Origin: a virus
Direction: 5' to 3' (one strand)
IMG/VR virus record: IMGVR_UViG_3300046691_000402
Span: 1 to 37,636 of that record
DNA: 37,636 nt
Below, one piece after another: positions 1,388 to 36,540 of the stretch (its first letter is position 1; every line of letters begins with the position of its first letter). A program made the position numbers and the translations under genes. The notes under the pieces were generated by a model, which worked only from the letters and a program-made list of their open reading frames with translations, made no database searches and was not told the DNA's origin.

Positions 1388-1548
1388 AACCATCCTCCCC
1401 CGATAGAAGTGATTAAAATTTACTCTCGATTCCGAGGCGACTGTGGATAAAAGATAGCAAATGACTTCTTCGACATTACTCCTCGCCCCTTTGAGTTAGA
1501 TCAATCTTGAGCCAACCCCATGGCCTATACTGAGTTCAGGAGGTTGAC

Positions 1549-1743
1549 ATGAACATGCAAAAAAACGAACCCGTCGCACCCATGCCGACCTGGCTGCTCG
1601 ATCGCTGCATTGCCGTGGCTGCAGAGTTGGAGCGCATGCATGGCGCTGAGTTCGCGGCTGCATTTCTTAATGACATTGGCGCTACGGCACAGTCCCGCAG
1701 CAATAGGCCTATGGTCCAAGAAACTCATCAATGTAAGTCATAG
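1549..1743 (+). CDS. Small helical protein, copy 1 of a local family
   Basis: A 64-residue protein preceded by a perfect AGGAGG five bases before the ATG, which makes it credible despite its size. Residues 13-45 form a likely amphipathic helical segment (WLLDRCIAVAAELERMHG, then AEFAAAFLNDIGA). The pattern of a hydrophobic helix, a turn at HG, and then A-AxFL resembles the proteins at 2300-2482 and 2703-3104, so I regard the three as divergent relatives. No known domain is recognised. The 3' end overlaps the end of the convergent gene ending at 1709 by about 35 bases. Confidence 0.7.
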   Translation: MNMQKNEPVAPMPTWLLDRCIAVAAELERMHGAEFAAAFLNDIGATAQSRSNRPMVQETHQCKS

Positions 1744-1933
1744 CATGCTTGACGGCATTGGCGCGCGCGCCACCCGCACTCCAAGCACTTACGATCAACT
1801 CCAAGTCCGAATATTCCTTGGGACCTAGAGCCGTGATATGGACAACGCACTTCCACTTGATGCTTGCCTTTCCACGTTTAACCCCCTTGACAGAACAATC
1901 GATTTCACACCCTCGATAGCTGTTCGGCCTCAT
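1709..1933 (-). CDS. Small conserved hypothetical protein downstream of DUF3606
   Basis: A 74-residue protein starting MRPNSYRGCEIDCSV, with AAGGAGG six bases before the ATG. The sequence alternates short beta-like stretches (KWKCVVHITAL, DLELIVSAWSAGG) with a C-terminal helix (ANAVKHAMTYIDEFLG), like a compact alpha/beta fold of the kind common in small Burkholderiales hypothetical proteins. It begins 11 bases after the stop of the DUF3606 gene (TAA-GGAGGAACCT-ATG), so the two are almost certainly one operon. Function unknown. Confidence 0.75.
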   Translation of the reverse strand: MRPNSYRGCEIDCSVKGVKRGKASIKWKCVVHITALGPKEYSDLELIVSAWSAGGARANAVKHAMTYIDEFLGP

Positions 1934-1943
1934 AGGTTCCTCC

Positions 1944-2120
1944 TTATCCTCCCAATTTTTTTTTCAAATTGGCGACCAGGGGTCCGACTTCCTTAACCAG
2001 CGCCATCAGCCGGTCCTCTGTTAGCCCTAGGACCCGCGTCCAATACGCGACCTGCCATGCATCATTTGTATTGACCCTAGCCCGGTCCTCGTGACCGCTA
2101 TTCTCCCGATCATCGAACAT
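1944..2120 (-). CDS. DUF3606 small protein
   Basis: A 58-residue protein reading MFDDRENSGHEDRARVNTND and on to LKKKLGG. It carries the DUF3606 signature: an acidic N-terminus, DRxRVN, then a WxVxYWTRxLGLTEDRL core and a closing helix with VKEVGP. The start has a GAGGAGAG ribosome site seven bases upstream. Members are small, function unknown, common in Proteobacteria and often stress-linked. A TACTATATTG stretch at about 2144-2160 on the coding strand could be part of its promoter. It is followed within 11 bases by the gene at 1709-1933. Confidence 0.85.
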   Translation of the reverse strand: MFDDRENSGHEDRARVNTNDAWQVAYWTRVLGLTEDRLMALVKEVGPLVANLKKKLGG

Positions 2121-2299
2121 GACACTCTCCTCACTCTGCCACTATCAATATAGTAAGTAAAGAGAGGGCCATCCGTGCGGTAGCGCACAATTGCCGTTCT
2201 CTTGCGACCGGCGCTCGGACGAGCTAACATTCAAATACAGACCGCTTCTACACCTGAGCGCCTGCAAATCCAAGCTCATTAGTTGGAGGGATGAATGCC

Positions 2300-2482
2300 A
2301 TGTCTCAGCCTTCAATTGCATTAGAAGAAGTGAGAAAAGATGTACGCACTGCAACCATCGTCCAACACGCGATGACACTGATGGCGCTGGCTGGGCTCGC
2401 CGAAGCCGCCAATTACCTTCGCCATCATCAAGTACCACCAGAAGTGAGAGAAAGAGTGCTAACAAGTGGAAGATGTCGATAG
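2300..2482 (+). CDS. Small helical protein, copy 2 of a local family
   Basis: A 60-residue protein beginning MSQPSIALEEVRKDV. GGAGGG lies at 2285-2290, directly against an upstream ATG at 2291 but ten bases before the ATG at 2300, so I prefer 2300. The body reads ATIVQHAMTLMALAGLAEA, then ANYLRHHQVPPEVRERVL, followed by a short tail. The segment A-xYLxxxxVPPxVxxRVLxxG is shared with the product of 2703-3104 (AYLISEEVPPPIIQRLL). No known domain is recognised; all-helical, probably soluble. Confidence 0.65.
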   Translation: MSQPSIALEEVRKDVRTATIVQHAMTLMALAGLAEAANYLRHHQVPPEVRERVLTSGRCR

Positions 2483-2702
2483 CTTTCGCGAAGTCCGCTG
2501 GTATCGATCCCGACTGTGGTGCAGACGGCCTAATTCAACTTGGAAATACGTGGCCGAGGGCAAAGAGCAATAGGTCCATGTCAGCATTGGAAGCCGGGGT
2601 ACGGAAGTAGCGCATAGTACTTCATGATAGCTGTGGCTTGGCGCCAACATTTCCCCCGGTGATTGAAATCCTAAATCGCGAGAGCAAAGCAGGCATGGTA
2701 AG

Positions 2703-3104
2703 GTGGATAGACCACCTAAAACATCGCAGAGCCAACCGCAGCCGCGCGAAGATGGAGACAACGTGCTACCTAATGTTCAGGAACGCCGCATAAGCGTTTG
2801 CCTGGCAGGCGTCATTGATGAGGCGCTTGACCTGGCTGATGAATTTGGATGGCGCTACGCCCTCGCCTATCTCATCAGTGAAGAAGTCCCTCCCCCAATC
2901 ATCCAGCGATTGCTCTTTGGCGGCGGGCGCGTACGGCGAACTTCCAAAATACGCCGTGACAGCTCCCCGGTCTGGACGGGCTCCAACGTTCACGGCATGA
3001 GAAGTCTATTCGATTGGCTACGCCTGCGCCGGTCAGCAGAAACTTGCAAACGCAACGATACGCCGTGCGCTTCGCGCCCGAGCGTGCGTCACGAAATCGA
3101 TTGA
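2703..3104 (+). CDS. Small helical protein, copy 3 of a local family
   Basis: Open frame of 133 codons with a GTG start at 2703 and only a weak AAGG ribosome site, so the exact start is uncertain. Residues 30-75 (ISVCLAGVIDEALDLADEFG, then WRYALAYLISEEVPPPIIQRLLFGG) match the helical core of copy 2 at 2300-2482. The remainder after about residue 80 is basic and Ser-rich without clear fold and could be a degenerate extension. It is on the same strand as copies 1 and 2. Function unknown. Confidence 0.55.
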   Translation: MDRPPKTSQSQPQPREDGDNVLPNVQERRISVCLAGVIDEALDLADEFGWRYALAYLISEEVPPPIIQRLLFGGGRVRRTSKIRRDSSPVWTGSNVHGMRSLFDWLRLRRSAETCKRNDTPCASRPSVRHEID

Positions 3105-3416: not shown

Positions 3417-4547
3417 ATGAGCCTCTCAGCCTTCATACGCTCCGGTATGCCGGAGATCCTCAGCGAATGGACGACCTTCGCTAAAAAAACAGCTCCACCC
3501 GAAAGGGAGATGTCAAACTTGGCACTTACCGATCATGCCGAGGCCATACTTTGCGCTATTGCTACCGACATTGAGACGTACCAAAGTAGACAACAGCAGT
3601 ACGACAAGTCTCAAGGTGAAAAGGACGATACTCGCGAAAAGGAAAGCGCAGCGGCAACTCATGGCCGACTTCGGCAAGAAAGCGATTTTTCATTGCTCCA
3701 GCTCAGTTCCGAATTTCGCGCCCTTAGGGCGACCGTGTTACGCCTTTGGTTGCCTTCCGTCAATCAAATGTCCGAGACGACGACTTATGAAATGATTCGG
3801 TTTAACGAGGCAATCGATCAGGCACTCGCGGAATCGATAGTGACCTACGCTGCACGAGCGGATCGCACGAGAGATTTGTTTCTCGCGGTGCTGGGGCATG
3901 ATTTGAGAGCCCCACTCGCCAACATTTCGCTGGTCAGCGACCTTCTTATGCATACTGTAGTGTCGCGAGAACAAGTGGCTGCCCTCGCGCAAAAGGCGAA
4001 GCGCAACGCAATACTGATGAGCGCGATGGTGACTGACCTCTTGGGTTTTGCAAGATTGCAACTGGGAGGGGGCATGCCAATCGTGCGAGTCGCCCTAGAT
4101 GCCCAGGAAGTGTGTAGAGCTGCGGTGGCTGATGCGCGGGCCATGTACCCAAACAGCACGATCGTCTTTGAGCCCAGCGGCGACCTTTCAGGGGCATTCG
4201 ATGGTACTCGCCTACGGCAATTGGTGACGAACCTTTTGATCAATGCCGCACAGTATGGCTCCACCGACAAGAACGTGACACTGGACGCAGTTGGGAGCGA
4301 TAACGCTATTATCCTCAAGGTGACTAATTGGGGGTCTGTTATCCCCGAAGAATCGTTCAAAACCATCTTCCAGCCATTAGTTCAATTAGACTCCAAGCCC
4401 GATGAAGAGGGACGGCCGAGAACTAGCTTGGGACTCGGACTGTTTATAGCCCACGAGACAGTAGTCGCCCATAACGGGACGATCAGCGTTACTTCCTCCG
4501 AAGCCGAAGGAACTGTATTCTCGGTCAGATTTCCTCGCGATTGCTAA
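3417..4547 (+). CDS. Orphan sensor histidine kinase with RsbRD-like N-terminus
   Basis: A 376-residue soluble kinase. Residues 1-145 are helical and resemble the RsbRD-type N-terminal sensor domain (FIRSGMPEILSEWTTFAKK; FSLLQLSSEFRALRATVLRLW). The HisKA dimerisation helix has the phospho-acceptor His161 (FLAVLGHDLRAPL). The ATPase domain shows the N box (RQLVTNLLINAAQYG, Asn272 and Asn276), a G1-like VTNWGS in which the usual Asp is Asn304, the F box (FKTIFQPLVQ) and the G2 loop SLGLGLFIA (338-345). No membrane segment is seen, so it is cytoplasmic. AAGGA lies upstream of the ATG. No response regulator is encoded nearby, so its partner must be elsewhere. Confidence 0.92.
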   Translation: MSLSAFIRSGMPEILSEWTTFAKKTAPPEREMSNLALTDHAEAILCAIATDIETYQSRQQQYDKSQGEKDDTREKESAAATHGRLRQESDFSLLQLSSEFRALRATVLRLWLPSVNQMSETTTYEMIRFNEAIDQALAESIVTYAARADRTRDLFLAVLGHDLRAPLANISLVSDLLMHTVVSREQVAALAQKAKRNAILMSAMVTDLLGFARLQLGGGMPIVRVALDAQEVCRAAVADARAMYPNSTIVFEPSGDLSGAFDGTRLRQLVTNLLINAAQYGSTDKNVTLDAVGSDNAIILKVTNWGSVIPEESFKTIFQPLVQLDSKPDEEGRPRTSLGLGLFIAHETVVAHNGTISVTSSEAEGTVFSVRFPRDC

Positions 4548-14162: not shown

Positions 14163-15955
14163 TATTTGAACCCGTATTGTGCGGCGCTAACCTGTTGACC
14201 ACGACTCGGAATAGCAGCCGCACCTGGAGCCGTGGTCTGCAATCTGGCCGCGTGATCCTGCAATGCCTGCTTTTGTCTAAGCAACTGCTCGTTCATGCTG
14301 GCGATAATGTTCTTCGCCGCCTTCGCGTCGGTTGTCTGCTTCAAGCCGCCGTTATCGCGCATGTACTGGAACTCGCTTTGGGCCATACGTGGTGCGCCGC
14401 CAGCCTCACCAGCACCCGCTAGAGCATTACGCGTTTCGGAGAACAAGTCCTGCGCAAGCAATGCGTTCAGCTCTTGACGACCCGGTGTCCAGTTAGGCAG
14501 ATGGCCCGCCACTACGCCTGTTTCGGTCGAGTCGTACAGTTCCTCGATTCGCTTGTTTCGCGCCAAGGCCGTATCAATTGCTGCCAACGCATTTGCGTTC
14601 GACTGGACAGCAGCGCCGATCTTCGCAGTCTGCTCGTCATTGCGGGCAATGACGCTGGAATCAACGACAGGCTTGCCGTTGGCATCGAGCATCGGTGATG
14701 TGCTGCCGTCTTTGTGTTTGTTCAGGCGGTTGCCATGTTCGTCTGTGGTCTCTCCGACAACGAGCTTTTCGCCACCCCCACCAATGCGCTGATGCTGGGT
14801 TGCGCCAGTCGCCGAATCTTCAGTGACTTGAATAAAGCCGCCGTTAACCGGGTCGGCCATGACGGTCGTTTTGAAGCGGCCGTTTTTACTGCCGAACATT
14901 GCATTCATTTGTGCCGTCGCCATTTGCTGCCCCATCGGCCCAGTGCGGGCAATGGCTTGCAGTTGCGCGATCTGTTCAGCTTGTGTCGGCTGTGCATTGG
15001 CGACAGCCTGATCTATCATGGAACGTGGATCACCGATTGGAGCTGTTGGCGCCTGCTGGGGCATTTGCGGTTGCGGTTGCGGTTGCGGCATAGGCGATTG
15101 GCCCTGTTGCGGGATTGGAGGCATCACAGGTGCTGACGGAGTAGGAGCAGTCGCACCAGTGACGCTCTGTGACGCGCCACGCACATTGCCTGTTGGGGCC
15201 GGAGCTGGTGATGGCGAGCCGCCACCGAATAGTTTCGCAGCCGTCGCAATGTCGTCTGGGCTTAGGCCACCACTGGCACCTGTCGGCAGATTAGTCGATG
15301 GGCCAAGCTTGCGCGACAAGCCGCTGCCTGATCCGAAACTTTGCGGTCCACCTGTAACTGCTTGCGATGGCCCTATCGGCGCACTCACGGCGGGAACCAC
15401 CGCGCTAGGCTGCGCGGAACCTGTCTTCGATCCAAGCGCCTTAGCTGCTGCCTTTGCTAATGGAATGATGGCCGTAGTCGGCGTATCGACTGCAAAGGTC
15501 TGCACATCAGGTGATTGATCCGCATTCGGGTCGATACGCTCACCGCCTTGAAGCGTGCGATTCGCTTCGCGTTGAAGCTCTGCATCTGCTTCTTTTTGCA
15601 TCTGTTCGGCGGCAGCACGTTGACCCGCTGGCGAGTTCTTGGGGTCCATCGCCCATGCCAAAGCATCTTGCGAATCCTGCGTGAGTTGTTTTTGCTTGTC
15701 GTCGGCTTCGTCATTTGCCTTCACACTTAGCGCTCCCGCGAGGATACGGGCGAGTGTGGAACCAACCGAATTACCACCCGCGAAGCCCGTAAAGTCGCCG
15801 CTTTTGATGAACTGCCCTTGATTGGACTGCGCGCCCAATGCCTGTAATGCCTGAGCAGCTTGGCGCTGTCGTGCCAGCTTTTGCGCTTCAATGTCGTAAT
15901 TAAACGTACTCGGATCAGATGGCGTAGAGGAACCGCCGAACCAGTTATTTGTCAT
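14162..15955 (-). CDS. Putative internal virion/ejection protein
   Basis: A 597-residue protein with helical N-terminus (QKLARQRQAAQALQALG), a coiled-coil-like segment near residues 85-135 (AAEQMQKEADAELQREANR), then a long Pro/Gln/Ala-rich linker (PQPQPQPQMPQQAP near 290-310) and a folded helical C-terminal third (QSNANALAAIDTALARNKRI). No enzyme motif is seen. It lies between the PP-loop enzyme and the transglycosylase protein in a row of ejection-type genes, which is the main reason for the call. It overlaps the 3' end of the PP-loop gene by 11 bases. Confidence 0.65.
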   Translation of the reverse strand: MTNNWFGGSSTPSDPSTFNYDIEAQKLARQRQAAQALQALGAQSNQGQFIKSGDFTGFAGGNSVGSTLARILAGALSVKANDEADDKQKQLTQDSQDALAWAMDPKNSPAGQRAAAEQMQKEADAELQREANRTLQGGERIDPNADQSPDVQTFAVDTPTTAIIPLAKAAAKALGSKTGSAQPSAVVPAVSAPIGPSQAVTGGPQSFGSGSGLSRKLGPSTNLPTGASGGLSPDDIATAAKLFGGGSPSPAPAPTGNVRGASQSVTGATAPTPSAPVMPPIPQQGQSPMPQPQPQPQMPQQAPTAPIGDPRSMIDQAVANAQPTQAEQIAQLQAIARTGPMGQQMATAQMNAMFGSKNGRFKTTVMADPVNGGFIQVTEDSATGATQHQRIGGGGEKLVVGETTDEHGNRLNKHKDGSTSPMLDANGKPVVDSSVIARNDEQTAKIGAAVQSNANALAAIDTALARNKRIEELYDSTETGVVAGHLPNWTPGRQELNALLAQDLFSETRNALAGAGEAGGAPRMAQSEFQYMRDNGGLKQTTDAKAAKNIIASMNEQLLRQKQALQDHAARLQTTAPGAAAIPSRGQQVSAAQYGFK

Positions 15956-16700
15956 TCAATGTCTCCTGTGCTTCATTGAGACGACGAATAAACGGCTCAA
16001 CGACCACTTTTATTTTTATCAGCCGTGCATTCACTTCGGACGCAACTTCTGGATGGTTCACTACAAGGTATTTATGGGCACCGTGTTCAAGCCATGCAGT
16101 GCAACGCATGCAGTCAGGCGTCGATGTCATACCTGCTGCATAGAACGGCGGCAAAGGAATGCCGTGATCCACTATGCACTTTTCGACATCTTCCGTCGTC
16201 CAATGCGCTATCGGAAATAGCAGTTGAATGCCTTCAATTACCGATCCATTCACGACATGGCTTTTGGTACTGTCTTCGTCTCGCTGCCCGCGCATCAGCA
16301 ACGTGATGCCGTCTGCTTTCATGCGCTCGTGCATGGGAACCATAATCGAGTGGAAGCAGCAGTTGTGGCGGTCGATCAATGGCACGTAGCCGTCGATGTC
16401 TTCGCGGGCAAACTGGAAGCCAGTACCCGGCTGCATGACATCACTAGGCCAGCCCATCTGCTCATGAACCTCGTTAACGCGCCCCATAATTTCAACGAAG
16501 TGCGGCACGACGTTTTTAACCGCGTCGATGAGTGCTTGGGTTTCTGGATACGCGTCGCCGCTGTTCGTGTAGTAGACCGTGATGCGATCCCAATACGGGC
16601 GCAAGGCAAGCAGCAAAGCCAAGCTATCGCGGCCACCGCTGAACTGAACAGCAATGCGCTGATGGGCATCGATCACGGAGTCGAAGTCTACGTTTGCCAT
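15945..16700 (-). CDS. PP-loop ATPase of the PAPS reductase family
   Basis: A 251-residue protein with the PP-loop VQFSGGRDSLALL (Ser21-Gly-Gly-Arg-Asp-Ser26), which binds ATP or an adenylated sulfate donor. RGQRDEDS at 137-144 matches the second nucleotide loop of PAPS/APS reductases. Cys114-Cys115 and Cys197-x-x-Cys200 (DCMRCTAW) could bind a metal or FeS centre. Phage members of this family are usually of unproven role: sulfate assimilation, tRNA thiolation or DNA phosphorothioation (DndC-like) are possible. It sits among virion genes, coupled to both neighbours (TAATG start; 11-base overlap), so it is expressed late. Confidence 0.85.
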   Translation of the reverse strand: MANVDFDSVIDAHQRIAVQFSGGRDSLALLLALRPYWDRITVYYTNSGDAYPETQALIDAVKNVVPHFVEIMGRVNEVHEQMGWPSDVMQPGTGFQFAREDIDGYVPLIDRHNCCFHSIMVPMHERMKADGITLLMRGQRDEDSTKSHVVNGSVIEGIQLLFPIAHWTTEDVEKCIVDHGIPLPPFYAAGMTSTPDCMRCTAWLEHGAHKYLVVNHPEVASEVNARLIKIKVVVEPFIRRLNEAQETLNDK

Positions 16701-31180: not shown

Positions 31181-31876
31181 TTACGCGCTGTATGCCTTCG
31201 ATGCGCAAACCTTCAAAGTAACTTGGCTGCCGTAAGCATCACTTTCAATTGCGATTTCGCCACCAACCAACTTTGCCCGTTCGAAAAAGCCGTACAAGCC
31301 CCAATGGTTTTTACGTCCGCCCGCAGCGATTATTTCACTCGGCATACCCTTGCCGTCATTAATAACCCGCATAGTGAACTGATCCTTACCATAACTGAGT
31401 ACTATTTGAATAGTTCTCGACTTGGCATGATGAAATGCATTCTTGACTGCTTCTAGTCCGATGAAATAGGCTTGACGGTGAACTTGAGGAAATAGCGCTC
31501 TTGTCTTATCGCTGCTATCGCAGCACAATTTAAAGCGAATGTCACAGTCTTCCAGCAACAAGACACCCATTTTATTAAGCGCATAGCCAAGATCAACCTC
31601 ACTCGATTCCATCGAACGAAGTTCTGCTATCTCATCACGCCCCTCCTGCACCAATTGCTCTGCGAATAGTAGCGTGCTCTCGAGTTTTGCTCGGCCAGGA
31701 GATTCGACAGGCATCTCCGATAGCAATGAATCGAATTTCAATACCATGGCATGAATGCCTTGTAAAAAAGTATCATGCAATACCCGCGCAATTCGTTCGC
31801 GTTCAGCCTTCCGAATGAGGTAATCACGCTTCGCGTGGCGTCTTTGCAAAAAATTGAATAAGTGAAGCGTCAACAT
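31181..31876 (-). CDS. Sensorless histidine kinase (HisKA_3 type)
   Basis: A 231-residue kinase core. The start at 31876 (MLTLHLFNFLQRRH) has GGGGG upstream. The HisKA_3 helix reads ERERIARVLHDTFLQGIHAM with phospho-acceptor His34. The ATPase part has Asn146 (LEAVKNAFHHAK), the G1 box INDGKGMP (172-179) and the final HWGLYGFFERAKLVGG. The large sensor part found in relatives of this NarX-like type, including the membrane helix, is absent, so it is either a truncated remnant or a cytoplasmic kinase fed by another protein. No response regulator is nearby. Confidence 0.88.
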   Translation of the reverse strand: MLTLHLFNFLQRRHAKRDYLIRKAERERIARVLHDTFLQGIHAMVLKFDSLLSEMPVESPGRAKLESTLLFAEQLVQEGRDEIAELRSMESSEVDLGYALNKMGVLLLEDCDIRFKLCCDSSDKTRALFPQVHRQAYFIGLEAVKNAFHHAKSRTIQIVLSYGKDQFTMRVINDGKGMPSEIIAAGGRKNHWGLYGFFERAKLVGGEIAIESDAYGSQVTLKVCASKAYSA

Positions 31877-32252
31877 AAGGCCCCCACGCACTAAAAGTTT
31901 TACAACCGATTCAATTCACCGAACGAGTTTCAAACCTGCCAGAGTCGCTTGGGATGGACTCACGTTAGGTTTAGGAATCTCTAAAAATACAATTCGCCAA
32001 CAGAAGTTTTTGCTTCAAAATGTGCACTTATGAATGAGTGCCAAGCTAATGTTTTCTGTTTCCAACGACCATCTTAGAGCACTTATTCCTCAGCCAATAG
32101 TCATAAAAAATCAAAACTCTTTTGCCCTCCAGTCAACAATCGATTTCGTTGCGGAAAGAGCTCACGTCTGTCATCCGCGCCACTCCTCCTTTCCTAGCAT
32201 TGTGCTCTTTCGTACAATGACTTTTAGTAGTTGATTAATGTGATCCATTCGT
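31877..32252. other. Non-coding stretch upstream of the kinase
   Basis: About 375 bases, somewhat AT-rich. An open frame at 32034-32234 on the plus strand has no ribosome site. Presumably holds the kinase promoter; no motif stands out. Confidence 0.45.
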
Positions 32253-36105: not shown

Positions 36106-36540
36106 CTACTTTGAGTTCTTTATTACATAGTACATACCAGCCAAAGCCACCATGCCCAAAACAGTGTTGACTACTTGCGAGCTGCTCGAATCGCCATGCG
36201 TTACCCGATTTACGAAACTCTCGCAGTTGTTGATTATAAGATCGTAGGCCATCCCGCCTTGTCTTAGTTCGTCAATTGCGCGTTGGACGACCTGTGCATC
36301 GCTGTCGGGTCCGGGGTTCCGAAAAAGGTGTATTTGCCCATTAGCTGCGTATCGGCGATAGAAGTCTTTGTAGGTAGCAATTTGGTATCCATAAGCCATC
36401 AGTTCTGCGATGTAGATTTCACCGTCGACAGCACCTTTGCCCAGGACAAGTGCGTGATGTTTCGGGCCATCCATCCCAAGCAAAGGCGTAGTGGCACCAA
36501 CTAAGCGGCATCCTGATACGTCAATTTGTAGTAGCTGCAT
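36106..36540 (-). CDS. LRAT-type (permuted papain-fold) protein with C-terminal membrane helix
   Basis: A 144-residue protein. LRAT/NlpC-like motifs are visible: HHALVLG (28-34, catalytic-type His) and INNCESFVNRVTHG (103-116), where NCE-x-F is the classic LRAT active-site signature with nucleophile Cys106. The segment VVNTVLGMVALAGMYYVI (123-140) is a membrane anchor. LRAT enzymes transfer or remove acyl groups from phospholipids or proteins. The gene sits at the very edge of the element, a typical place for lysogenic-conversion genes, and has its own terminator. Confidence 0.8.
   Translation of the reverse strand: MQLLQIDVSGCRLVGATTPLLGMDGPKHHALVLGKGAVDGEIYIAELMAYGYQIATYKDFYRRYAANGQIHLFRNPGPDSDAQVVQRAIDELRQGGMAYDLIINNCESFVNRVTHGDSSSSQVVNTVLGMVALAGMYYVIKNSK

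Follow-up and report, generated by a model that had tools for sequence, protein, structure and literature searches.

Two and probably three small proteins beside a phage integrase belong to a multi-copy chromosomal family of Burkholderiales

The window, i.e. the whole stretch of DNA that was analysed, is a virus record of 37,636 bases. An integrase occupies its left edge, a late gene cluster lies on the minus strand, and an accessory stretch of small genes separates the two. The terminase of the window is 39% identical to the terminase of Rhodoferax phage P26218. The left part contains the following features, including three small proteins termed P1, P2 and P3:

1 to 1035, plus strand: tyrosine integrase (Pfam Phage_integrase, 9.7e-29; PHROG integrase, 4.2e-49)
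1491 to 1504, plus strand: FNR/ANR-like box TTGAGTTAGATCAA, one mismatch to TTGAT-N4-ATCAA
1526 to 1531, plus strand: -10-like hexamer TATACT of the predicted P1 promoter
1549 to 1743, plus strand: P1, 64 aa, a probable diverged family member that lacks the RVL..RR end
1709 to 1933, minus strand: 74-aa protein of the accessory stretch, with homologues in chromosomal islands of the genomes G795, G846 and G907
1944 to 2120, minus strand: DUF3606 protein, 58 aa (Pfam DUF3606, 1e-15)
2300 to 2482, plus strand: P2, 60 aa, a clear family member (HMM E value 6.7e-18)
2763 to 3104, plus strand: P3, 113 aa, a clear member with a conserved C-terminal extension (HMM E value 1.5e-17)
3417 to 4547, plus strand: cytosolic sensor histidine kinase (RsbRD_N, HisKA, HATPase_c), a cargo gene 3' of P3

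P1 is separated from P2 by the two minus-strand genes for the 74-aa protein and the DUF3606 protein. The kinase shares 52% identity with a plasmid-borne kinase of Caballeronia and 55% with one in the locus L168.

The three plus-strand ORFs that an earlier note on this DNA had listed, each with a ribosome site of its own, all exist, with revised starts for P2 and P3. P1 has AGGAGG immediately 5' of its ATG. For P2, the ATG at 2300 is better placed relative to the GGAGG at 2285-2289 than the one at 2291 further upstream. No good ribosome site precedes the GTG at 2703, which had been proposed earlier as the start of P3; the GTG at 2763, which stands five bases after GGAG (2754-2757) and roughly matches the start of the chromosomal orthologues, is more likely to be used. 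Comparison with the syntenic viral record L002 yielded dN/dS ratios of 0.32 for P1 and 0.43 for P2, next to 0.18 for the integrase and 0.16 for the kinase. P3 differs from its L002 counterpart by five synonymous and 14 other changes (dN/dS 0.92), and the ratio is 0.25 against the viral record L003 and 0.41 against the chromosomal region L127, with which P3 shares 76% DNA identity across 180 bases. Judged from these ratios, P1, P2 and P3 are genes. Identity to L002 is 93-96% in bases 2701-3100, compared with mostly 78-92% for P1, P2 and the kinase, and dS against L002 is 0.06 for P3 versus 0.24-0.48 for P1, P2, the integrase and the kinase. P3 has thus probably been exchanged recently between the phage of the window and that of L002, the low divergence reflecting either such an exchange or an extra constraint.

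The three ORFs had been described as repeated, divergent copies of one small protein, and P2 and P3 indeed turned out to be true homologues that belong to one small-protein family. When all ORFs of six viral records were searched with an HMM made from 131 chromosomal members only, i.e. without P2 and P3, the E values were 6.7e-18 for P2 and 1.5e-17 for P3, and all seven ORFs of the P2/P3 type in the six records scored at most 2.2e-15. Compared directly, P2 and P3 of the window give a weak match (E about 0.02-0.03 in the ORF set), while the L002 copy of P2 matches P3 of the window with 34% over 41 aa (E 2e-7 in a single comparison). The motif given earlier as A-xYL/AxFL is shared, although its spacing has to be corrected to AxxYL/AxxFL (AAAFL in P1, AANYL in P2, ALAYL in P3), and the turn VPPx[VI]xxR[LV]L, which had been ascribed to two of the proteins, was found in P2 and P3. 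P2 has RERVL and a short tail ending in R, and P3 has IQRLL plus RVRR, so that the helix-3 arginine (profile position 41) and the basic tail (positions 49-50) are present in P2 and P3; P1 is devoid of both.

The shared core of about 50 residues reads R-x-D...(I/V)V..A/G(I)...G...AxxYL....VP..VI.RVL..P..RR. In 130 distinct chromosomal rows, which were found with the profile and are hence somewhat biased toward it, the consensus consists of R1, D3, V10, A/G13, A25, Y/F28, L29, V/I34, R41, V42, L43, P46, R49 and R50, and conservation amounts to 100% for R1 and R41, 97% for R50, 94% for A25 and L43, 85% for R49 and 77% for P46. The core is predicted to form three helices. AlphaFold2 models computed from phage sequences only, with shallow alignments (seven and four rows), place the helices of P2 at residues 4-31, 33-42 and 47-56 (pLDDT 83.9, pTM 0.65) and those of P1 at residues 14-31, 33-43 and 47-51 (pLDDT 73.6, pTM 0.51); the boundaries coincide, in line with the shared helical fold that structure prediction had been expected to reveal. 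Structure searches with the P2 model yielded generic helical chains and no significant match to a solved fold (best Foldseek E value 1.6, best VIA Z score 5.4). In a PDB sequence search designed TPR and PPR repeats came first, and none of the matched stretches was significant by itself. Scans of Pfam-A, NCBIfam and PHROGs with P1-P3 and 23 members gave no match over or near the curated cut-offs, the best sub-threshold E values being 0.0088, 0.045 and 0.079, respectively, and no description of this small-protein family was found in those parts of the literature that were accessible to the search. A small three-helix domain also occurs as the repeat of RecX (Pfam RecX_HTH1), but the matches are weak (two of the 23 members, best 0.013) and the majority of the family members have none. 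A gene for a DUF3606 protein lies within the same accessory stretch as P1-P3, whereas the Pfam scans of P1-P3 and the 23 members show no match to DUF3606.

P1 probably is the third member of the family, though a strongly diverged one. It scores 0.22 with the 131-member HMM, and its homologues score 0.0036 (L007), 0.05 and 0.23, among which two unrelated ORFs also fall (0.047 for 36109-36540 of the window and 0.15 for one in the viral record L009). This value of P1 alone and the missing RVL..RR end would fit the view that P1 is unrelated and resembles the family only as a helical hairpin of comparable length, and so would the outcome of a P1-profile search of 195 genomes, in which 12 genomes had a match at E values up to 0.01, two of them P1-like by eye and the others mostly unrelated larger proteins. 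Nevertheless, this view is rather unlikely to be correct. The helices of P1 are co-linear with those of the family, and a glycine occupies the same place. The real scores of the four P1 sequences were reached by 2, 3, 0 and 0 of 2000 shuffles each (two for the P1 of the window). Profile-profile comparison of P1 with the family gave P = 0.0028, or 0.0012 with a larger profile, and upon addition of two chromosomal P1-like proteins, L203 and L206, which were themselves chosen using the P1 profile, the probability was 86.5% and P = 4.6e-6, with none of 200 column-shuffled controls. These two short proteins score 4e-4 and 9e-4, respectively, with a profile free of P1 sequences.

The home of the family is the host chromosome, and within a lineage of the Burkholderiales it occurs in multiple copies that are distributed among many paralogous lineages. 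The host-type genomes were reached via an E. coli type strain, with the 16S of Cupriavidus as a yardstick, and a sample of 349 genomes of the order, which was assigned via a 16S match of 90% to Cupriavidus. A narrow profile (A1) matched 19 of these 349 genomes, about nine of which were judged by the motif to be real, the remaining matches being stretches of larger or antisense ORFs; in 274 genomes sampled from the gammaproteobacterial class it gave two weak matches. The 23-row profile A3, counted at a cut-off of E up to 0.001, matched 165 of 294 genomes of the Burkholderiales family that includes genome G548 and none of the 274 gammaproteobacterial genomes. Ten genomes searched in depth contained 118 domains at E values up to 0.01, i.e. 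five to 18 per genome. Of these domains, 34 lie less than 10 kb from another one (random placement: mean 4.9, maximum 20 in 2000 placements), and 30 of the 34 belong to G795, G846 and G907, which have islands of about 50 kb with many members, two-domain proteins among them. The islands also hold homologues of P2, P3 and the 74-aa protein of the window (about 30-37% identity for the latter), and that of G846 in addition a kinase 37% identical to the kinase of the window. Therefore, the accessory stretch of the window looks like a piece of such a host-type gene stock.

Members with two domains were found at L120:7513-7995, L121:3399-3902, L122:6901-7344, L126:495-998 and L127:16422-16925, some of them directly 3' of a kinase. 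Lone members elsewhere have conserved contexts, for example a UvrD-type helicase, a response-regulator gene or a tryptophan 2,3-dioxygenase operon (60 regions). Searches of other collections were unproductive: 72,556 plasmids were searched by tblastn with four members, two from phages and two chromosomal, which yielded chance-level matches or none, as did P3 against phage records, a scan of genome contigs gave one spurious match in Chloroflexi, a degenerate DNA pattern returned from the viral contigs only one already known record, and this same record was the one near relative obtained in an integrase scan.

The proximity to the integrase, on which the earlier note had laid weight, is real for the phages: in all five viral records with both an integrase and a member (the window, L002, L003, L007 and L009), a member lies within about 1.2 kb of the end of the integrase gene. 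Two further records, L004 and L008, begin inside P3 or P1 at the contig edge. On the chromosomes the expectation that homologues would occur beside integrases was not borne out: in 164 chromosomal loci a profile of five integrases detected three ORFs only, one of which is a false family match inside an integrase while the other two represent the same place. Thus, association with integrases is restricted to the viral records and is not a property of the whole family.

It had also been suggested that the proteins form a locally expanding family. A tree of 101 rows and 53 columns, from which P1 was left out and in which many forks stay open, places P3 in a six-row clade (support 99/95) with chromosomal rows of G795, G846 and G907 and the phage L003. 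P2 and two phage orthologues group together (100/99) inside a ten-row group (92/90) with chromosomal rows of G795, G907, G846 and G335. P2 and P3 thus fall into separate lineages, each together with chromosomal proteins, which speaks against the suggested expansion; for these two proteins, local duplication in the phage is excluded by their placement in the tree. On this evidence P2 and P3 are of separate origins and were not recently made from one another.

The upstream regions give hints to regulation. In front of P1, TTGAGTTAGATCAA (1491-1504) stands 21 bases before TATACT (1526-1531). In L007 and L009, TTGACGTAGATCAA and the 21-base spacing to the -10 hexamer are kept in spite of an otherwise different upstream sequence, and the box of L002 has one further mismatch, so that the position of the box before the -10 hexamer is conserved in three of the four P1 genes. 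The box has one mismatch to TTGAT-N4-ATCAA in the window, L007 and L009 and resembles the consensus of FNR/ANR-type regulators. It is centred about 41 bases before the start, which is the position of class II activation. Boxes with at most one mismatch occur in 13 of 136 upstream regions (132 members plus the four P1 genes), compared with a mean of 0.7 in shuffles and with eight of 345 control windows. Perfect boxes were found six times in 802 kb, and four of the six are located no more than 330 bases upstream of a member. Of these four, three belong to one orthologous group and are placed 3' of another conserved promoter element, and therefore they may act in repression. This strongly conserved element, TGACATTGACTTTG, occurs before many chromosomal members, in 37 of the 136 upstream regions and mostly in one clade (shuffles 0.17; control windows 4 of 345), and stands about 17-20 bases before GGATACTC or CATACTC (e.g. 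in L156, L160 and L175). Scans for consensus promoters and terminators gave nothing above shuffles.

Because members of the family lie in the accessory stretch beside the integrase in the five viral records holding both, they are best read as cargo. Carriage in such a stretch is supported, as is the status of P1 as a diverged member on sequence grounds; that P2, P3 and probably P1 are moron-type prophage cargo from the chromosomal three-helix family and act as autonomous regulatory adaptors is, taken as a whole, a reasonably probable explanation. Features of cargo genes are present in the ribosome sites of their own, the location in the accessory stretch and the relatives on host-type chromosomes. 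Prophage morons and the cargo of lysogenic conversion are the general kind of genes that can be used for comparison. Similar to these, the window has small independent genes and a host-type kinase in the interval from the integrase to the end of the late operon, and the relatives of P1-P3 sit on host-type chromosomes. The difference is that the products encoded here come from a family that is multi-copy on chromosomes and matches no curated model.

Other readings have to be weighed against cargo carriage. The proximity to the integrase in five of five viral records, the small size, the helical nature and the conserved arginines would suit phage regulators of a lysogeny or excision module, i.e. 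DNA-binding proteins similar to Xis, Cro or Cox. No such family was matched in Pfam, PHROGs or NCBIfam, however, and most relatives are chromosomal and away from integrases, as the three integrase-profile ORFs in 164 loci illustrate, which makes this reading quite improbable. The designation as anti-host factors, which had been offered as one option, is very improbable also in the form of counter-defence proteins. Small, diverse and phage-encoded proteins next to an integrase might invite it, but most members are ordinary host chromosomal genes with conserved local contexts across many genomes, and the only PADLOC signal, 0.032 for one of 23 members, does not exceed noise.

A partnership with sensor histidine kinases, in which the small proteins and the kinase at 3417-4547 would travel as one signalling cassette, is suggested by several loci. 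P3 ends 312 bases 5' of the kinase of the window on the same strand, in L122 and L128 a kinase ORF is followed at a distance of 57-171 bases by a member in the same orientation, L122 has two different members after kinase ORFs with orthologues in L120 and L119 arranged likewise, and in L003 an ORF recognised by eye as receiver-domain-like lies between two members. The de-duplicated neighbour surveys, in which genes were called by a simple longest-ORF rule, did not support such a partnership: HATPase_c was found in three of 121 neighbours versus four of 120 in the background, and Response_reg in four of 121 versus three of 120. The conserved contexts are for the most part unrelated, e.g. tryptophan dioxygenase or a helicase of the UvrD type, and this reading is unlikely, too.

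As to the function of the presumed cargo proteins, the best guess is that they are small arginine-rich regulatory adaptors that are partly oxygen-responsive. We infer the adaptor role from the small size, the conserved arginines, the copy number, the separate promoters and the lack of a fixed partner gene. Docking onto a partner would be the task of the helical body, and nucleic acid or the acidic surface of a protein would be contacted by the conserved arginines, of which one stands at the beginning of the core, one in helix 3 and two in the tail. The paralogues would differ in the promoters that switch them on, some of these being FNR-like and active at low oxygen, and the host would obtain a few additional switches of this kind from the prophage. 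A more far-reaching proposal, that the proteins constitute an undescribed class of small three-helix regulators with up to 18 paralogues per genome in one Burkholderiales lineage and promoters of their own, several under oxygen control of the FNR type, which temperate phages collect, keep next to their integrases and pass between hosts, must be regarded as speculative and has a rather small chance of being right.

With the phage, a lysogen acquires two or three additional proteins of this kind. If they are regulators, they would represent a lineage-specific layer of control that is traded by phages, and the conserved promoters make this idea directly testable. Over half of the genomes sampled from a large bacterial family carry these proteins, often in several copies, and the libraries searched contain no curated model for them; this amounts to an annotation gap, which can be closed now using the profile found here.

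Several minor observations were made along the way. In L139, L142, L145 and L146, from four genomes, a member adjoins genes for tryptophan 2,3-dioxygenase and kynurenine-pathway-like genes, and a gene of the violacein pathway (VioE) occurs among the background set of genes. L002 has about 509 additional bases directly before P1 (at about 1490 of the window). The minus strand of the window encodes a lysine/arginine-rich ORF of 79 aa at 1154-1393, which is without Pfam match and is embedded in a stretch 95-98% identical to L002 at the DNA level, a PAPS-reductase-family protein within the late gene cluster (15945-16700), a second histidine kinase (31181-31891; HisKA_3, HATPase_c) and, near the right end, an LRAT-family protein (36106-36540).
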